From Rhodococcus opacus (lineage in GTDB: Bacteria > Actinomycetota > Actinomycetes > Mycobacteriales > Mycobacteriaceae): a DNA stretch of 64,000 bases. Position 1 is the first letter of the stretch, and the number at the start of each line of letters is the position of its first letter. Below, one piece after another: positions 4,485-60,867 of this stretch. The stretch lies in NCBI RefSeq assembly GCF_012396235.1, contig NZ_JAAXPA010000003.1, positions 248,001 to 312,000 of the forward strand, in the 5' to 3' direction. The translations under genes and the position numbers were made by a program. Below the pieces are notes generated by a model. That model searched no databases. It was not told where the DNA came from and was given only the letters and a program-made list of their open reading frames with translations.

Positions 4485-6623
4485 GTGAGCGAGCAGAACA
4501 TCATCAACTGGGAGCAGGACGCCGACGGCATCGTCGTGCTCACCATCGACGATCCCAACCAGGGCGCGAACACCATGAACGACGCCTACATCTCCTCGAT
4601 GAAGGCGACCGTCGACCGCCTCGTCGACGAGAAGGACTCCATCACCGGTGTCGTCATCACGTCCGGCAAGAAGACGTTCTTCGCCGGCGGCGACCTGAAG
4701 AACATGATCAAGGTCGGCCCGGAGAACGCCGACGAGATCTACAGCCACAGCGTCGCGATCAAGTCGGACCTGCGCCGACTCGAGACGCTCGGCAAGCCCG
4801 TCGTCGCCGCCATCAACGGTGCCGCGCTCGGTGGCGGACTCGAGATCGCCCTGGCCACGCATCACCGCGTCGCCGCGGACGTGAAGGGCGTCAAGATCGG
4901 CCTGCCCGAGGTCACCCTCGGCCTGCTGCCCGGTGGTGGTGGCGTCGTGCGCACCGTCCGCATGCTCGGCCTGCAGAACGCGCTCATGCAGGTGCTGCTC
5001 CAGGGGCAGCAGCGTGGACCGGTGCAGGCCAAGGAGGTCGGACTGATCGACGAGGTCGTGTCCTCGGTCGAGGAGCTGGTGCCCGCCGCGAAGGCGTGGA
5101 TCCAGGCCAACCCTGAGGGCGGCGTCCAGCCGTGGGACAAGAAGGGCTACCGGATCCCCGGCGGCACCCCGTCCACCCCGGCGTTCGCAGCCAACCTGCC
5201 CGCGTTCCCCGCGAACCTGCGCAAGCAGCTCAAGGGTGCTCCCATGCCGGCACCGCGCGCCATCATGGCCGCCGCCGTCGAGGGCTCGCAGGTCGACATC
5301 GACAACGCGCTCCTCATCGAGGCCCGCTACTTCACGTCGCTGGTCACCGGCCAGGTTGCGAAGAACATGATCCAGGCGTTCTTCTTCGACCTGCAGGCCA
5401 TCAACTCCGGCGCCTCCCGCCCCGAGGGCATCGAGAAGACCCCGATCACCAAGGTCGGTGTGCTCGGTGCCGGAATGATGGGCGCGGGCATCGCCTACGT
5501 GTCCGCGAAGGCCGGCTTCGACGTCGTCCTCAAGGACGTCACCATCGAGGCCGCCAACAAGGGCAAGGCGTACTCCGAGGGCATCGAGGCCAAGGCCCTC
5601 TCGCGTGGCAAGACCACCGAGGAGAAGTCGAAGACGCTGCTCGACCGCATCACCCCGACCGCCGACCCCGCCGACTTCGCCGGTGTCGACTTCGTCATCG
5701 AGGCCGTGTTCGAGTCGCAGGACCTGAAGCACAAGGTGTTCCAGGAGATCGAGGACATCGTCGAGCCGACGGCCCTGCTCGGCTCGAACACGTCGACCCT
5801 GCCGATCACCGGCCTCGCGACGGGTGTGAAGCGTCAAGAGGACTTCATCGGAATCCACTTCTTCTCCCCCGTCGACAAGATGCCGCTCGTCGAGATCATC
5901 CGCGGCGAGAAGACGTCCGACGAAGCCCTCGCGCGCGTCTTCGACTACGTGCAGGCCATCCGCAAGACGCCGATCGTCGTCAACGACTCGCGTGGCTTCT
6001 TCACCTCGCGCGTCATCGGCACGTTCATCAACGAGGCCATCGCCATGCTGGCGGAGGGCATCGAGCCCGCCACCATCGAGCAGGCAGGCATGCAGGCCGG
6101 CTACCCCGCGGCACCGCTGCAGCTGTCCGACGAGCTGAACCTCACGCTGATGCAGAAGATCCGCAAGGAAACCGCGGAAGCTGCGAAGGCCGAAGGCAAG
6201 GAACTGCCCGCCGATCCGGCAGGCGACGTCATCAACACGATGGTCGACAAGTTCGACCGCAAGGGCAAGCTCGGTGGCGCCGGCTTCTACGACTACGCCG
6301 ACGGCAAGCGCACCGGCCTGTGGTCCGGTCTCCGGGAGAACTTCGGTTCCAAGGAACTCGAGGTGCCGTTCCAGGATCTCATCGAGCGCATGCTGTTCAT
6401 CGAGGCCATCGAGACGCAGAAGTGCTTCGACGAAGGCGTGCTCCTCACCACCGCCGACGCCAACATCGGCTCCATCATGGGTATCGGCTTCCCCGCCTGG
6501 ACCGGCGGTGTGTCGCAGTACATTCAGGGCTACGAAGGCGGCCAGGCCGGCTTCGTCAAGCGCGCTGAAGAACTCGCCGCCAAGTACGGTGAGCGCTTCA
6601 CCCCGCCGGCCTCGCTGAAGTAG
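4485..6623 (+). CDS. fadB: Bifunctional enoyl-CoA hydratase / 3-hydroxyacyl-CoA dehydrogenase
   Basis: This 712-residue alpha-subunit of the beta-oxidation complex hydrates trans-2-enoyl-CoA and oxidises the 3-hydroxy product with NAD. The N-terminal crotonase domain (about 10-300) shows the oxyanion-hole regions [14 protein letters not shown] and [14 protein letters not shown]. The NAD-binding Rossmann motif [14 protein letters not shown] begins near residue 325, followed by [17 protein letters not shown] and two C-terminal 3HCDH domains. The GTG at 4485 has CAGGAG 11 bases upstream and gives the usual N-terminus. The stop codon TAG (6621-6623) is followed directly by the first 46-bp palindrome region. 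Confidence 0.95.
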
Positions 6624-6626
6624 CAG

Positions 6627-6684
6627 GCGGCTCCGCCGCCCGTGCGCCTTTTTGGTAGCTGCAACAACCAAAAAGGCGCACGGG
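6627..6684. repeat. 46-bp palindrome family, copy 1, with GC hairpin flank
   Basis: The 46-bp unit at 6639-6684 starts CCCGTGCGCC and ends GGCGCACGGG. Its 18-bp arms are perfect around a 10-base loop (AGCTGCAACA). It is preceded by a short GC hairpin, GGCGGCTCCGCCG (6627-6639). Nearly identical 46-bp units lie at 7793-7838 (inverted) and 33491-33536, conserved in loop as well as stem. Position right after the fadB stop suits a terminator, but the conserved primary sequence marks it as a dispersed repeat. It is the left flank of the first AbiEi/DUF559 cassette. Confidence 0.9.
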
Positions 6685-6689
6685 GCGGG

Positions 6690-6735
6690 TTATCCACAAC
6701 TTCGCGGTTATCCACAGGCAGCGTGGATAACCGCG
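6690..6735. promoter_or_regulatory. Cluster of three DnaA boxes before the first AbiEi/DUF559 gene
   Basis: There are two perfect TTATCCACA boxes on the plus strand (6690-6698 and 6708-6716) and one 8/9 box on the minus strand (6722-6730). The last two form a perfect 13-bp inverted repeat with a 7-base spacer (6703-6715 / 6723-6735). The first box starts 5 bases after the palindrome end, the same spacing as at 15507. No dnaA, dnaN or AT-rich unwinding region is nearby, so control of the adjacent gene by DnaA, or of this DNA segment, is more likely than an origin. Confidence 0.7.
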
Positions 6736-6771
6736 TTTTTGTCGGCATCGGAGTCGGACGAGCATCGCACG

Positions 6772-7818
6772 ATGCGCCGTATGACCGACATCGACCTCCA
6801 CGACTTTCAGCGCCTCGTCGACACCCAGTTCGGGATCGTCACGCAATCCCAACTCGAGCCGTTCGGCTTCTCCAGAGGGAGGGTTCGCCATCTCCTCGAC
6901 TCGGGGCAGTGGCGCCGTGTCCTCCAAGGCGTCTATGCCGTCACCAACGGCCCGTTGACCCGAAACATGATCCTGTCCGCCGCTCTCCTCTACGGCGGCG
7001 GCCATTCGATGCTCAGCCACATCACCGCGGCGGAGGAATGGGGGATGGTCCCTCGCCGCGACGGCGAACCGATCCACATCACCGTGCCGTACGGGAAATC
7101 GTCGCGGTGCCAGAGCTCGACGGGCATGCGTCCGTCGCGTAAGCCCGGCAATCCGATCGCTCCGTCCTCGCCGTTGCATCCGGGAGTTGTCGTGCACAGG
7201 TCGAGGGCCCACGATTACATCGCCGTCGACACGGATCCGCCTCGTACGGCGCGAGCCGACACTGCACTCGACCTCGCGATTGCCGAGCCCACGGCCCGTG
7301 ACGCATACACCAGGCTCATCGCCCTCGTGACCAATGCCCGGATCCCCCTGCGCGACATCCGGCGACGCATGGAGGAGCGACGACCACGTCGGTATGGCAA
7401 GGCGCTCGTGGATGCGGTACGACTGCTCGCCGACGGCGTCCAGTCGGTGCTCGAGTACCGCTACGCCACCGACGTCGAGGATGCGCACGGGCTTCCACGG
7501 GCGCGGCGCCAGTCACCCGTTGTCGTGGACGGGCGGACCCTCTTCGAGGACTGCGACTACTCCGACCACGGTGTGCCGCTCATCGTGCGACTCGACGGTC
7601 GCCGCGCGCATGCCATGGCGGAGGTCGCGTTCCGGGACCGCCGACGCGACAATGCCGCGGAACTGCAGGGACGGCCGCGACTCGTCTACGGATTCGACGA
7701 GGTGACGAAGAATCCGTGTGTGGTGGCCCGTGAAGTGGAGACCGTGCTCGTGCGGGAGGGGTGGATCAGGCCCGGCGAGAGGCCCTGCCCGGCCTGTGCG
7801 CCTTTCTGGTTGTCCTAG
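6772..7818 (+). CDS. AbiEi-like winged-helix protein with DUF559/Vsr-type nuclease-fold C-terminus (paralogue 1)
   Basis: The protein has 348 residues. The N-terminus (about 10-80) matches the AbiEi antitoxin winged-helix domain (GIVTQSQLEPFGF ... VLQGVYAVTNGPLT). The C-terminus has the layout of DUF559/very-short-patch-repair nucleases: LEYRYATDVE, LFEDCDY, VRLDGRRAH, RDRRRDN. The usual catalytic Glu of IExDG is Arg here (IVRLDG), so nuclease activity is doubtful. No AbiEii partner is adjacent. The start may be ATG 6772 or ATG 6781; in-frame codons further upstream run through the DnaA boxes and are rejected. The end CPAC-APFWLS and the TAG stop are encoded inside palindrome copy 2. A paralogue in the same arrangement lies at 15578-16591. 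Confidence 0.8.
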   Translation: MRRMTDIDLHDFQRLVDTQFGIVTQSQLEPFGFSRGRVRHLLDSGQWRRVLQGVYAVTNGPLTRNMILSAALLYGGGHSMLSHITAAEEWGMVPRRDGEPIHITVPYGKSSRCQSSTGMRPSRKPGNPIAPSSPLHPGVVVHRSRAHDYIAVDTDPPRTARADTALDLAIAEPTARDAYTRLIALVTNARIPLRDIRRRMEERRPRRYGKALVDAVRLLADGVQSVLEYRYATDVEDAHGLPRARRQSPVVVDGRTLFEDCDYSDHGVPLIVRLDGRRAHAMAEVAFRDRRRDNAAELQGRPRLVYGFDEVTKNPCVVAREVETVLVREGWIRPGERPCPACAPFWLS

Positions 7819-7851
7819 CTACCAAAAAGGCGCACGGGCGGCGGAGCCGCC
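7793..7851. repeat. 46-bp palindrome family, copy 2 (inverted relative to copy 1)
   Basis: The 46-bp unit at 7793-7838 is the reverse complement of copy 1 with six differences, mostly in the loop and one arm end, followed by GCGGCGGAGCCGCC. Together copies 1 and 2 form inverted repeats of about 58 bp flanking the AbiEi/DUF559 gene. The gene's TAG stop (7816-7818) lies in the loop region. On the minus strand the stop of the methyltransferase gene abuts the outer GC hairpin. It can act as a bidirectional terminator between convergent genes. Confidence 0.88.
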
Positions 7852-9152
7852 TACTTCCACCACGGACGCAGCGGCACATGCGCCTCGCCCTTGGGGCCGA
7901 GCTTGACGGCGAGGACCTGGTGCAGCTGAACGACGTTGCGTTCGAAGCCCAGTCGCGACCCGGCCATGTAGAGACCCCACACACGTGCGGTGCCTTCGCC
8001 GACCTCGGCGACGCAGGCGTCCCAGTTGTCGACGAGGTTCTGGCACCAGCCGGCGAGGGTGAGTGCGTAGTGCTCGCGCAGATTCTCCTCGTGCCGCACC
8101 TCGAGTCCGACGTTCTGGATCTCGGAGATGATGCGTCCGGAGCCGGTGAGTTCGCCGTCGGGGAAGACGTACCGGTCGATGAAGCCGCCTGCGCGTGCCT
8201 GACTCTGGTTGTCGGGCCGGGTGATGCAGTGGTTCAGCAGCCGGCCGCCCTCGCGGAGCTTGCTCTGCAGCAGTCCGAAGTAGGCGGGGTAGTTGCCGAC
8301 GCCGATGTGCTCGGTCAGGCCGATCGAGGAGATGGCGTCGAATCCGGTCTCGGGGACGTCACGGTAGTCGGAGAACCGGACCTCGGCGAGGTCGGACAGT
8401 CCTTCTTCGGCGATGGCCTTCTGTGCCCATTCGGCCTGTTCGCGGGACAGGGTGGCGCCGATGACCTTGACGCCGCGGCGGGCGGCGTACCGGACCATCG
8501 ATCCCCAGCCGCAGCCGATGTCGAGCAGTCGGTCGCCGGGCTGGAGGCCGAGCTTCTCGAAGACGAGGCGGTACTTGTTGTCCTGTGCCTCTTCGAGGGT
8601 CTGCTCGACGTTCTCGTAGCAGGCGCACGTGTACGTCATGGACGGGCCGAGGACGTACTCGTAGAAGGTGTTCGAGACGTCGTAGTGGTGGTGGATGACC
8701 TCGGCGTCGCGGGACTTGGAGTGCCGCAACCCTTCCGCGACTCGACGCCACCGCGGGAGGTGCTCCTGCGGGGGAGGGGCGATGGGGCGCAGCAGATCCC
8801 AGCCGAGCGAGCGCGTGATGGCGGCGAGCGTGAGCGCGGACGGACGGCGGAAGTGCAGTTCGTCGCCCATCACGCGGAGGATCTCGTACGGGTCGCCGGG
8901 GTGGACGCCGCGGGCCTCGAGGTCGCCGGACACGTAGGCCCGGGCCATGCCGAGGTCGCCGGGGGCGGTCGCCAGGTAGGTGGTGCCCCGGGTGGTCTTG
9001 AGGTGGAGACCGTAGGGGGCGTCCTCCGGGCCGGCGGCGCTGCCGTCGTAGGCGGAGAACCGCAGGGGGAGCATGCCGTCGGACAGAGTTTCGAGAATCT
9101 CTGCGATGGTCAGCTTGTGGTCTTGGGAGCGTGAAGCTTTCAGAGTTGTCAT
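7851..9152 (-). CDS. bfaB: SAM-dependent cyclopropane-synthase-family methyltransferase (10-methyl fatty acids)
   Basis: This 433-residue methyltransferase has the SAM-binding motif LLDIGCGWGSMV, with HHHYDVSNTFYEYVLGPSMTYTCACY upstream in split form (HHYDVSN ... SMTYTCACY), typical of cyclopropane-fatty-acid synthases. Paired with the FAD oxidoreductase that precedes it, it fits the BfaB/TmsB enzyme. That enzyme methylates the oleoyl double bond of phospholipids to a 10-methylene intermediate on the way to tuberculostearic acid. Its ATG overlaps the oxidoreductase stop by 4 bases (9149-9152), so the two are co-translated. The M. tuberculosis counterpart by position would be Rv3720. A mycolic or cyclopropane-forming role is less likely because of the partner gene. 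Confidence 0.82.
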   Translation of the reverse strand: MTTLKASRSQDHKLTIAEILETLSDGMLPLRFSAYDGSAAGPEDAPYGLHLKTTRGTTYLATAPGDLGMARAYVSGDLEARGVHPGDPYEILRVMGDELHFRRPSALTLAAITRSLGWDLLRPIAPPPQEHLPRWRRVAEGLRHSKSRDAEVIHHHYDVSNTFYEYVLGPSMTYTCACYENVEQTLEEAQDNKYRLVFEKLGLQPGDRLLDIGCGWGSMVRYAARRGVKVIGATLSREQAEWAQKAIAEEGLSDLAEVRFSDYRDVPETGFDAISSIGLTEHIGVGNYPAYFGLLQSKLREGGRLLNHCITRPDNQSQARAGGFIDRYVFPDGELTGSGRIISEIQNVGLEVRHEENLREHYALTLAGWCQNLVDNWDACVAEVGEGTARVWGLYMAGSRLGFERNVVQLHQVLAVKLGPKGEAHVPLRPWWK

Positions 9153-12951: not shown

Positions 12952-12993
12952 GGTAAATGGTTGTTCACCTAATCTGGTGAACAACCATTTACC
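12952..12993. promoter_or_regulatory. 42-bp perfect palindrome, probable TetR operator
   Basis: The 18-bp arms (GGTAAATGGTTGTTCACC and its exact complement) are separated by 6 bases (TAATCT). It lies between the TetR gene and the MFS start at 13014. The arm AT content and absence of a T-tract suit a protein site better than a terminator. It is long enough for two TetR dimers. Confidence 0.75.
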
Positions 12994-15461: not shown

Positions 15462-15501
15462 GTGAGTGCCGATGTGTACCCGGATGGACATCGGTACTCA
15501 C
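15462..15501. repeat. 40-bp palindrome family, copy 1
   Basis: Exactly 40 bp, GTGAGTGCCGATGT ... ACATCGGTACTCAC. The 14-bp arms pair throughout with one G-T wobble. It is the left flank of the second AbiEi/DUF559 cassette, and the DnaA box begins 5 bases after it. Confidence 0.85.
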
Positions 15502-15577: not shown

Positions 15578-16591
15578 ATGGAACACGACTCATGGCAGTC
15601 CATTCTCGACGCCCAGGACGGCGTCGTCACCACGGCACAGCTCCGGGCGCACGGCGTCAGTGCCACCGCACTCCGGCATCGTGTGGTGTCCGGTCAGTGG
15701 CTGCGGGTGCTGCCGCGCGTCATCGCGGTCACCAACGGTCCGCTCACCCGCCCGATGGCCCTCTCCGCCGCACTCCTGTACGGCGGCCGGGCGATCCTGA
15801 GTCACCGGACCGCGGCCGAGGAATGGGGACTGCTCCGCGTCGACGACCCGTCGGCACCGGTCCACATCACTGTCCCCTACAACTGCTCGGCGGTGAATCA
15901 GGGGCAGACGGTCCGCTCACCCGGCAGTCGGCGCCCGACCTCGGTCGGCAACGCACTCGTTCATGGTGGCGTCGTGGTCCATCGGTCTCGCGCGTTCGAG
16001 CACATCTCGGTCCCGTTCCGTCGGCCACGGACATCGTTGGCCGACACGGTGATCGACCTCGCGGTGTCCGAGGCCACCCCGCGGGAGGCGGCCCTCCGGT
16101 TCATCGAGGCCGCCACAAGTGGCAAGGTCCACGTCGAGGTGCTCCGGCGGAAACTCGAGGTCCGGCGTCCACACCGGTATGCGACCGACATCGCCGACGC
16201 CGTGATGCTGCTCGGCGACGGCGTTCAATCGGCCCTCGAACACCGCTACGCACTCGACGTCGAACGGGCGCACGGGCTGCCGAGCGGAAAACGTCAGATG
16301 CCGCACGTCGTGGACGGCCGGATTCTGTACGAGGACGTCGATTACAGCCCCATGGGTGTGCCGCTGATCGTCCGGCTCGACGGGCAGCAGTATCACAGCG
16401 CGCAACAGTCCCGTTTCCGTGACCGTCGGCGCGACAACGCGGCGGAGCTGGCCGACCGTCCACGGCTGGTCTACGGGTGGGATGAGACGACCCGCGACCC
16501 CTGCGGGGTATTCGAGGAAGTGCGCCGGGTGTTGGTCCGCGAAGGATGGGCCGATATGTCGCGCCGCTGTCCAGCCTGCCCACGTGAGTGA
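15578..16591 (+). CDS. AbiEi-like winged-helix protein with DUF559/Vsr-type nuclease-fold C-terminus (paralogue 2)
   Basis: The protein has 337 residues and is clearly paralogous to the protein at 6772-7818 over its whole length, sharing VTNGPLTR, ALSAALLYGG, ITVPY, VVVHRSRA, DGVQS.LE.RYA.DVE, GVPLIVRLDG and RDRRRDNAAEL. The AbiEi winged helix is N-terminal. The nuclease-like part again has Arg where DUF559 has the catalytic Glu (IVRLDG). ATG 15578 is the first start after the DnaA boxes. The C-terminus CPAC-PRE and its TGA stop (16589-16591) run into a 40-bp palindrome. No toxin partner is adjacent, so a classical AbiE toxin-antitoxin role is not supported. Confidence 0.8.
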   Translation: MEHDSWQSILDAQDGVVTTAQLRAHGVSATALRHRVVSGQWLRVLPRVIAVTNGPLTRPMALSAALLYGGRAILSHRTAAEEWGLLRVDDPSAPVHITVPYNCSAVNQGQTVRSPGSRRPTSVGNALVHGGVVVHRSRAFEHISVPFRRPRTSLADTVIDLAVSEATPREAALRFIEAATSGKVHVEVLRRKLEVRRPHRYATDIADAVMLLGDGVQSALEHRYALDVERAHGLPSGKRQMPHVVDGRILYEDVDYSPMGVPLIVRLDGQQYHSAQQSRFRDRRRDNAAELADRPRLVYGWDETTRDPCGVFEEVRRVLVREGWADMSRRCPACPRE

Positions 16592-16623
16592 GAAAGAGTG
16601 CCCCGCCACTCTTTCTCACTCAC
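16584..16623. repeat. 40-bp palindrome family, copy 2 (supplies a stop codon)
   Basis: Exactly 40 bp with perfect 17-bp arms (GTGAGTGAGAAAGAGTG and complement) and the loop CCCCGC. The AbiEi/DUF559 paralogue 2 terminates at the TGA at bases 6-8 of this element. Confidence 0.88.
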
Positions 16624-32382: not shown

Positions 32383-32422
32383 GTGAGTGGCATTGTGTGC
32401 CCCGCCACGCTTTGCCACTCAC
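32383..32422. repeat. 40-bp palindrome family, copy 5
   Basis: Exactly 40 bp, GTGAGTGGCATTGTGT ... ACGCTTTGCCACTCAC, loop region GCCCCGCC. It lies between convergent genes, 6 bases before the pirin stop. A small GC hairpin (GGCGCCCC-TGAGT-GGGGCGCC) at the end of the preceding gene probably terminates on its own. Confidence 0.85.
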
Positions 32423-33477: not shown

Positions 33478-33536
33478 GGCGGCTCCGCCGCCCGTGCGCC
33501 TTTTTGGTAGCTGCAACAACCAGAAAGGCGCACGGG
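33478..33536. repeat. 46-bp palindrome family, copy 3
   Basis: The 46-bp unit at 33491-33536 differs from copy 1 by one base and is preceded by the same GGCGGCTCCGCCG hairpin. On its other side a different GC hairpin, GGCGC-GAA-GCGCC on the plus strand as GCGCGAAGCGC, abuts the stop of the DUF732 gene, so it can terminate that minus-strand gene. It is not next to any AbiEi/DUF559 gene. Confidence 0.88.
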
Positions 33537-44990: not shown

Positions 44991-45782
44991 ATGTCAATGT
45001 CTCTCTCACCGTCCCTCGAATTCGTTCTCGTCACGAGGCTTCGCGCCGCCGGCTGTGTGTTCGCCGAGGACGAGGCCCGCTTGATCGTCTCCGCGGCCAG
45101 GACGTCCGACGAACTCGCGTCGATGCTGGACCGCCGCGTCGCAGGCGTCCCCCTCGAACACGTCCTCGGCTGGGCCGAATTCTGCGGGCTCCGGATCGCG
45201 GTCGATCCGCGGGTGTTCGTTCCGCGCCGCCGCACCGCGTTCCTCGTCGAGCAGGCCGGCGCCCTCGCGTGCCCGCGCGCTGTCGTGGTCGACCTGTGTT
45301 GCGGTTCGGGCGCGGTGGGTGCCGCGCTCGCCGAGACGCTGGGGGACGGCATCGAGTTGTATGCGGTGGACATCGACCCCGCCGCGGTCCGGTGCGCGCG
45401 ACGCAACGTCCCAGACCCCGGCCGGGTGTTCGAGGGCGACCTGTACGAACCGTTGCCCACCACGCTGAGGGGAAGCGTCGACGTCCTGGTCGCCAACGCA
45501 CCGTACGTGCCCACCGACGCGATCCGGTTGATGCCGCCGGAGGCCCGGTTCCACGAACCACGGGTCTCGCTCGACGGCGGCGCGGACGGACTCGACACCC
45601 AGCGGCGGGTGACCCTCGGGGCGCGCGACTGGCTCGCGCCGGGTGGTCATCTACTGATCGAGACCAGTGCGAGCCAGGCCGCGCTCACCGCCGAAGCTTT
45701 CGCCGAGGCCGGGTTGATCACCCGGATCGAGATCTCGGACGACATGGACGCCACCGTCGTCGTGGGCGCCAACCCCAGGTGA
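44991..45782 (+). CDS. PrmC/HemK-related N5-glutamine methyltransferase
   Basis: This 263-residue protein starts at ATG 44991 (GAAGG about 8 bases upstream; GTG 44949 is an alternative). It has SAM motif I VVDLCCGSGAVGAALAE and the acidic VDIDPAAVRCARRN. The catalytic loop is NAPYVPT rather than the NPPY of true PrmC, a form seen in the PrmC-related subfamily. True PrmC modifies release-factor GGQ glutamine; this relative may have another protein substrate. Its TGA stop lies in a 40-bp palindrome. Confidence 0.82.
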   Translation: MSMSLSPSLEFVLVTRLRAAGCVFAEDEARLIVSAARTSDELASMLDRRVAGVPLEHVLGWAEFCGLRIAVDPRVFVPRRRTAFLVEQAGALACPRAVVVDLCCGSGAVGAALAETLGDGIELYAVDIDPAAVRCARRNVPDPGRVFEGDLYEPLPTTLRGSVDVLVANAPYVPTDAIRLMPPEARFHEPRVSLDGGADGLDTQRRVTLGARDWLAPGGHLLIETSASQAALTAEAFAEAGLITRIEISDDMDATVVVGANPR

Positions 45783-45818
45783 GTGCCGAAGCGTCCCGGG
45801 GCACGCTTTGTCACTCAC
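45779..45818. repeat. 40-bp palindrome family, copy 6 (stop codon for both flanking genes)
   Basis: Exactly 40 bp, GTGAGTGCCGAAGCGT ... ACGCTTTGTCACTCAC. The TGA at 45780-45782 ends the PrmC-like gene. On the other strand, the TGA at 45813-45811 ends the convergent regulator gene. Confidence 0.87.
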
Positions 45819-60827: not shown

Positions 60828-60867
60828 GTGAGTACTTGTCAACGTCCCGCGGTTGATAAGTACTCAC
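60828..60867. repeat. 40-bp palindrome family, copy 7
   Basis: Exactly 40 bp, GTGAGTACTTGTCAAC ... GTTGATAAGTACTCAC; arms pair fully with one G-T wobble, and two more paired bases lie on each side (60826-60869). Arm sequence differs from other copies apart from the ends, yet pairing and length are kept. It lies in a divergent intergenic region, not at a gene end. Confidence 0.82.

Follow-up and report, generated by a model that had tools for sequence, protein, structure and literature searches.

Locus 1 and the other palindromes of the window

The window, that is, the whole 64-kb stretch of Rhodococcus opacus DNA that was analyzed, carries two members of one gene family, accompanied by palindromes with 40-bp cores and by DnaA boxes. 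These features are located as follows.

6622..6689, plus strand: left end of a terminal inverted match (68 nt); a mini-hairpin, GGCGGCTCCGCCGCC, adjoins the core
6642..6681: upstream 40-bp palindrome core, class A (GTGCGCCTTTTTGGT...), within the 46-bp palindrome 6639-6684
6690..6698, plus strand: DnaA box 1, TTATCCACA
6708..6716, plus strand: DnaA box 2, TTATCCACA, 18 bp from box 1
6722..6730, minus strand: third box, TTATCCACG, one mismatch
6781..7818, plus strand: gene for a 345-aa protein, its N-terminal half AbiEi-like and its C-terminus predicted to be a Vsr/DUF559-like nuclease
7788..7855, minus strand: right end of the terminal inverted match (68 nt)
7796..7835: downstream 40-bp palindrome core, class A, containing the stop codon 7816-7818
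15462..15501: 40-bp core, class C, upstream of L003
15507..15527: DnaA boxes upstream of L003, TTATCCACA (plus) and TTTTCCACA (minus)
15578..16591, plus strand: paralogue L003, the second member of the family, with 57% identity to the first
16584..16623: 40-bp core, class C, overlapping the end of L003
16632..16671: 40-bp core, class C
32383..32422: dispersed 40-bp core, class C
33494..33533: dispersed 40-bp core, class A
45779..45818: dispersed 40-bp core, class C
60828..60867: dispersed 40-bp core, class B (the class of paralogue L002)

The initial annotation had described a cassette of palindrome, DnaA boxes, nuclease-like gene and inverted palindrome at locus 1, and each of these elements was found in place. 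The arms of the 46-bp palindrome (6639-6661 and 6662-6684) are 91% complementary; its inverted copy lies around 7785-7838, with the gene's TAG stop codon (7816-7818) inside it. A perfect box, TTATCCACA at 6690-6698, follows the first palindrome after five bases, and boxes 2 and 3, in opposite orientation, sit in an inverted repeat of 13 bp without mismatch (6703-6735). The gene may alternatively start at an in-frame ATG at 6772. In the window as a whole, there are 7 DnaA box sites with at most one mismatch against 2.14 expected, and 14 palindromes of the quality of 6639-6684 against 0 to 1 in five block shuffles. The palindromes of the window are above chance, yet not peculiar to the locus 1 gene, and the observation at locus 1 is real and one part of a larger phenomenon. 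A different 42-bp palindrome at 12952-12993 (GGTAAATGGTTGTTC...) is nearly unchanged in R. jostii and R. koreensis. Elsewhere in the genome, two divergent paralogues, L004 (C33:126881, minus strand) and L005 (C77:72829), are 30% and 26% identical over the N-part. A palindrome precedes each gene, along with two boxes: at L005 both are exact TTATCCACA, 18 bp apart, and at L004 one is exact and the other imperfect. The window's genome contains 2 copies of the L004-type palindrome.

The two ends of locus 1, 6622-6689 and 7788-7855, match at 90% across 68 nt, and the sequence 5' of the gene differs among Rhodococcus, Prescottella and Rhodococcoides homologues, as might be expected of a composite mobile element in which gene and flanking palindromes transpose as a unit. 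However, as read by eye, several Rhodococcus species have the gene at one position, behind the end of the same fadB-like gene; R. jostii and R. koreensis both carry the gene with its palindromes in their colinear stretches; and the two flanks can be of different classes, as at L036. We therefore give little credence to such an element. The mobile gene unit proposed in the initial annotation was likewise not borne out, given the shared position and a whole-gene dN/dS of 0.07 to 0.30 (ten pairs).

As to the protein, PF13338 (the AbiEi_4 N-domain) matches it with an E value of 4e-7 and matches 24 of 29 family members in a Pfam scan; an AbiEi-like middle domain is also present. The Vsr-like nuclease fold that had been proposed agrees with the predicted structure. 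The DUF559 score of the C-terminal part is 13.7 bits (cut-off, 20.6), with DUF559 matches at E≤1 in 8 of 18 members, and sequence searches against solved structures gave no meaningful match, a negative to which we attach no weight. Residues E224, D256, H276 and D285 (alignment numbering) do not vary among 29 sequences; E-D-x-H-D is presumably the catalytic motif of Vsr-like/DUF559 nucleases. In Rhodococcus sp. IEGM 1409 (L050), the homologue frame stops at 125 aa, and it is probably a broken copy.

A stand-alone defense or restriction-type nuclease, for which the genomic palindromes mark self or serve as decoys, would fit the predicted Vsr-like fold and the PADLOC AbiEi models, which match 29 of 29 members. 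As the initial annotation had stated, there is no AbiEii toxin partner, nor is there a defense gene, among the three neighboring genes tested (3HCDH/ECH, CMAS and FAD_binding_4 proteins). These absences, and the position of the gene, kept behind one and the same gene end across several Rhodococcus species, make a defense role improbable.

Palindromes and DnaA boxes across the gene family

Palindromes and boxes are enriched at the homologues, as the initial annotation had expected. Among 41 loci, five from the window's genome and 36 named homologues, 33 have a palindrome upstream of the gene and 33 have one at its end, and elsewhere in the same loci there are 12 palindromes in 170,848 nt. Palindromes of the same gene resemble each other, with a pair similarity of 29.1 compared with 10.5 between genes (0 of 10,000 permutations; 32 of 41 loci, the other nine being without a pair; the set retains incorrect palindromes for L041, L045, L058 and L071).

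The core family comprises 49 loci, namely 39 from the earlier homologue sets and L074 to L083. A GTG...CAC core was found on 90 of their 98 flanks. Its length is uniquely 40 bp on 60 flanks, tied with 40 among the lengths on 26 and different on 4, in a count that did not favor 40 bp in ties. The 40-bp length is kept in Rhodococcus and Pseudonocardiaceae despite differing inner sequence; the R. trifolii homologue has a 36-bp palindrome. The flanks of L064 and L076 are identical, and the two may be one species. A flank of the second R. erythropolis paralogue (L282), GTGCGCCTTTATTAACC, resembles class A ends with a class B middle.

In random 265-bp windows, a core of any length occurred in 157 of 2,000 and a 40-bp core in 33 of 2,000. 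An ordinary gene that chances to adjoin common intergenic repeats could be suspected from the 40-bp cores at 118 of 1,190 predicted gene 3' ends and in 55 of 1,190 5' regions. Nevertheless, cores on both sides occur at just 8 of the 1,190 genes, in contrast to the high flank count of the family, and the upstream and downstream copies are alike in sequence, so that chance adjacency is scarcely credible.

Exact TT[AG]TCCACA on either strand was found within 150 bp upstream of the gene in 37 of 49 core loci, compared with 34 of 20,000 random windows, so that DnaA boxes specific to the family are borne out. Where two exact boxes form a direct pair at core loci, their spacing is 18 to 19 bp in 9 of 11 cases. 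PMC4285127 lists TTGTCCACA as the DnaA box of high affinity in M. tuberculosis and S. coelicolor. The paired boxes may couple expression of the gene to the replication cycle.

An association general to all AbiEi_4 proteins was considered and rejected because few class-wide loci have palindromes or boxes. A class-wide sample of 79 genomes returned 30 loci, of which 9 at contig ends were skipped; palindromes were present on both sides in 3 of 21 and a box in 6 of 21. Among 29 order-wide loci, core and divergent, 14 have an upstream and 15 a downstream palindrome, against a background of 18 in 68,282 nt. From these counts, the association therefore belongs to the core family and some relatives and not to the whole Pfam family. 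Five distant AbiEi_4 relatives (L091, L092, L311, L329 and L332) have palindromes of other sequence on both sides, and these are mutually alike.

Dispersed copies and their exchange in place

The palindromes are also dispersed. The class A arm GTGCGCCTTTTTGGT has 35 matches in the window's genome, and every Rhodococcus class is dispersed too, mostly just 3' of stop codons. Across 1.58 Mb of sequence drawn from three genomes (the window's, R. jostii and R. koreensis), 124 of 152 cores measure exactly 40 bp; the stretches are orthologous, and the sites are therefore not independent. A reversed-sequence control gave 37 cores, 1 of them of 40 bp.

Copies of class B (GTGAGTACTT) number 80 in the window's genome, 89 in R. 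jostii, 79 in R. wratislaviensis and 87 in R. koreensis, and 0 to 3 in 15 other genomes. The orthologue of L002 (92 to 100% identity) is present in exactly these four class-B-rich genomes among 15 searched, the next best match being 63% identical. Of 24 homologue genomes, 7 have class A arms, and each of the 7 is a Rhodococcus or Prescottella. The dispersed classes of R. jostii and R. erythropolis do not match their gene.

Next, the distribution of one class was surveyed in 298 genomes of the order, 10 of which have the core gene at E≤1e-100. Palindromes of the form CGTGAGTG...CACTCACG reach at least 10 copies in 8 of these 10 genomes, compared with 6 of the 288 others. The six others all belong to genus g40, where 4 other species carry the core gene. 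By genus, at least 10 copies were found in 5 of 7 core-gene genera versus 0 of 70 without it, so that in this survey every genus with 10 or more copies of the CGTGAGTG palindrome also has the core gene. Within genera, G188 (with the gene) has 47 copies and G247 (without the core gene) has 1, and G160 (with the gene) has 17 and G067 (without) has 0. In G250 and G274, the two genomes that have the core gene but few copies (3 and 1, respectively), the gene is flanked by palindromes of other sequence. The six g40 genomes (G076, G118, G168, G271, G278 and G282) hold 11 to 183 CGTGAGTG palindromes with no core gene (best E value, 2e-12); their palindromes may be orphans or served by another enzyme.

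Comparison of Rhodococcus species at about 92% identity, with the window's genome as source, yielded 77 site comparisons, of which 48 were classifiable at both ends. These are 9 A-A, 2 D-D, 9 A/D swaps, 12 B-B and 16 C-C (one C-C target being counted twice), and none of the 48 is a swap between the A/D, B and C groups. Among the remaining comparisons, 23 had no flanks and 6 had no classified 40-bp core, three of the latter being D-like by eye. At three swap sites (own 161494, window 33494; own 135796, window 7796; and 102049 of the C22 stretch), the swapped cores share 15 to 20 of 40 bases, and 16 to 20 of the 20 bases on each side match. The R. koreensis counterpart of the core at 33494..33533, for example, is of class D and that of R. 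jostii is D-like, with flanks largely kept. Classes A and D both flank orthologues of the window gene. Mini-hairpins like GGCGGCTCCGCCGCC flank many class A and D cores, e.g., directly left of 6642 and 33494, and those beside 40-bp cores are often retained when the core is swapped; in the swaps at 94547, 81245 and 310477, one adjacent mini-hairpin changes as well.

No clean empty site was found for the core classes in orthologous stretches of the window's genome, R. jostii and R. koreensis. A site of L004 type (own 7341) is absent from R. koreensis inside a larger gap, and R. koreensis has a class C copy (244978) that the window's genome lacks along with about 100 bp. Synteny breakpoint sides lay near a 40-bp core in 31 of 118 cases against 3.2 expected; this link was dropped, as the odds ratio was 2.5 (P = 0.015) relative to other gene 3' ends and 1.27 (P = 0.63) relative to other intergenic gaps.

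The palindromes could instead be host elements, such as 3'-end terminators or mRNA stabilizers, with the protein a regulator that binds the flanking and dispersed copies and a nuclease fold that is inactive or used elsewhere. By a simple home-made gene caller, 117 of the 124 40-bp cores are intergenic, and the median distance from core to nearest stop codon is 7 bp (n = 100). Moreover, five palindromes fold as single-stranded DNA at -17 to -23 kcal/mol, and AbiEi antitoxins are described in PMC7319586 as autoregulating via promoter inverted repeats. However, a T-rich tail (at least 5 T in the next 10 nt) follows at just 3 of 248 core sides, the nuclease-domain residues are invariant, and terminators would not be expected to measure exactly 40 bp, to be confined to core-gene genera or to swap classes in place. 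Overall, we regard host elements as unlikely, while finding in them a reading that deserves weight.

A putative palindrome-reading enzyme and its likeness to REP/RAYT

The two parts of the protein have diverged unequally. Between the window protein and its R. koreensis orthologue, identity per 30 residues is 33 to 60% up to about residue 150 and 83 to 100% from there to about residue 330, and for the pair R. jostii and R. koreensis the N-part has a dN of 0.41 and the C-part one of 0.034. Trees were built for 28 of 47 aligned loci, with class taken from the upstream palindrome (downstream for L041). In the N-domain tree, a single clade for the six close species (that of the window's genome, R. 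jostii, R. wratislaviensis, R. koreensis, R. tibetensis and a Rhodococcus MAG) was rejected (P = 3e-70), and single clades for class A (5 rows, without L071) or class D were not rejected (P = 0.43 and 0.29), neither being strongly supported. In the C-domain tree, the six species form one clade (98/97), and single clades for A or D were rejected (P = 2.7e-5 and 4e-41). Over 47 loci, the partial correlation with palindrome similarity was 0.25 for the N-domain (0 of 2,000 permutations) and 0.07 for the C-domain. This agreement is the best evidence that the N-domain may read the palindrome, and such recognition appears well supported by the sequence comparisons.

The initial annotation had drawn an analogy to REP palindromes and their RAYT enzymes, which holds in that the gene is flanked by its own dispersed palindromes. 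In REP/RAYT systems, as described in PMC3686654 and PMC3733652, a dedicated gene is flanked by its own short palindromes, which have many dispersed, mostly extragenic copies, and REP abundance seems tied to the cognate gene, departures being ascribed to loss of the gene. Like these REPtrons, the AbiEi-Vsr gene is flanked by its own repeat class, the palindromes are mostly extragenic, and their abundance follows the cognate gene, with exceptions in g40, R. jostii and R. erythropolis. Unlike RAYT, the protein joins an AbiEi half to a Vsr-like nuclease and has no Y1 tyrosine transposase match, Y1 being absent among the 13 Pfam families found up to E 1 in 29 members. Also unlike REP, which has a GTAG tag at one end, the 40-bp GTG...CAC element is palindromic at both ends; the swaps of class in place and the DnaA boxes at the gene are further differences. 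The AbiEi-Vsr system would function like REP/RAYT but is not a member. CGTC-tagged REPs, apparently without a dedicated transposase according to PMC3733652, are likewise dispersed palindromes without RAYT; here, however, a dedicated candidate enzyme is present. The words Actinobacteria and Rhodococcus are absent from the main text of that paper, and a literature search over portions of open-licence papers found no description of this gene-palindrome system.

With the AbiE type IV toxin-antitoxin system (AbiEi antitoxin 6y8q, Rv2827c), the protein shares the AbiEi_4 N-domain and the AbiEi-like middle domain. It differs in having no AbiEii nucleotidyltransferase toxin among the three neighbors tested, a predicted extra C-terminal nuclease domain and dispersed palindromes. 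From the Vsr-like homing endonuclease I-Bth0305I (3r3p) and the endonuclease-like protein 3hrl, entries to which the names Vsr-like, EDxHD and DUF559 apply, the protein differs in its fusion to AbiEi and in its tie to 40-bp palindromes instead of an intron or a mismatch.

Our best reading is a REP/RAYT-like partnership with an unrelated enzyme, whose N-domain would read the palindrome. We consider it fairly probable that the protein is a dedicated palindrome enzyme, in which an AbiEi-like DNA-reading half and a Vsr-like (DUF559/EDxHD-type) nuclease are joined, flanked by the 40-bp palindromes that it recognizes; our confidence stays moderate because the N-domain clades are compatible with palindrome class and do not strongly support it. 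As far as sequence comparison reaches, the 40-bp length, the pairing of gene and class, the fit of the N-domain to class and the A/D swaps in place are established, as is, for the class surveyed, abundance only in core-gene genera.

Mechanistically, the N-domain would bind its own palindrome class, possibly in the form of a hairpin or cruciform that extrudes as the DNA replicates. The nuclease would nick the bound palindrome, and repair from another copy could replace or add palindromes, which may thereby spread in a homing-like or REP-like process. Replacement is seen in the alignments, and we infer insertion, cutting and the role of the enzyme. Against this mechanism stand the palindrome-rich g40 genomes without the gene, the class mismatch in R. 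jostii and R. erythropolis, and the lack of clean empty sites in the stretches compared. We tentatively propose, as a plausible extension that is itself open to doubt, a RAYT-independent homing-like system of actinomycetes in which the AbiEi-Vsr nuclease reads one class of 40-bp palindromes and drives both their conversion in place and their spread, with specificity changed by exchange of the N-domain and the flanking palindromes.

If true, this would be a second enzyme-palindrome partnership beside REP/RAYT, with an unrelated enzyme, and would account for large palindrome families in Rhodococcus and some Pseudonocardiaceae. Classes A, B, C and D would offer natural pairs with exchanged recognition domains for direct tests of recognition and spread.
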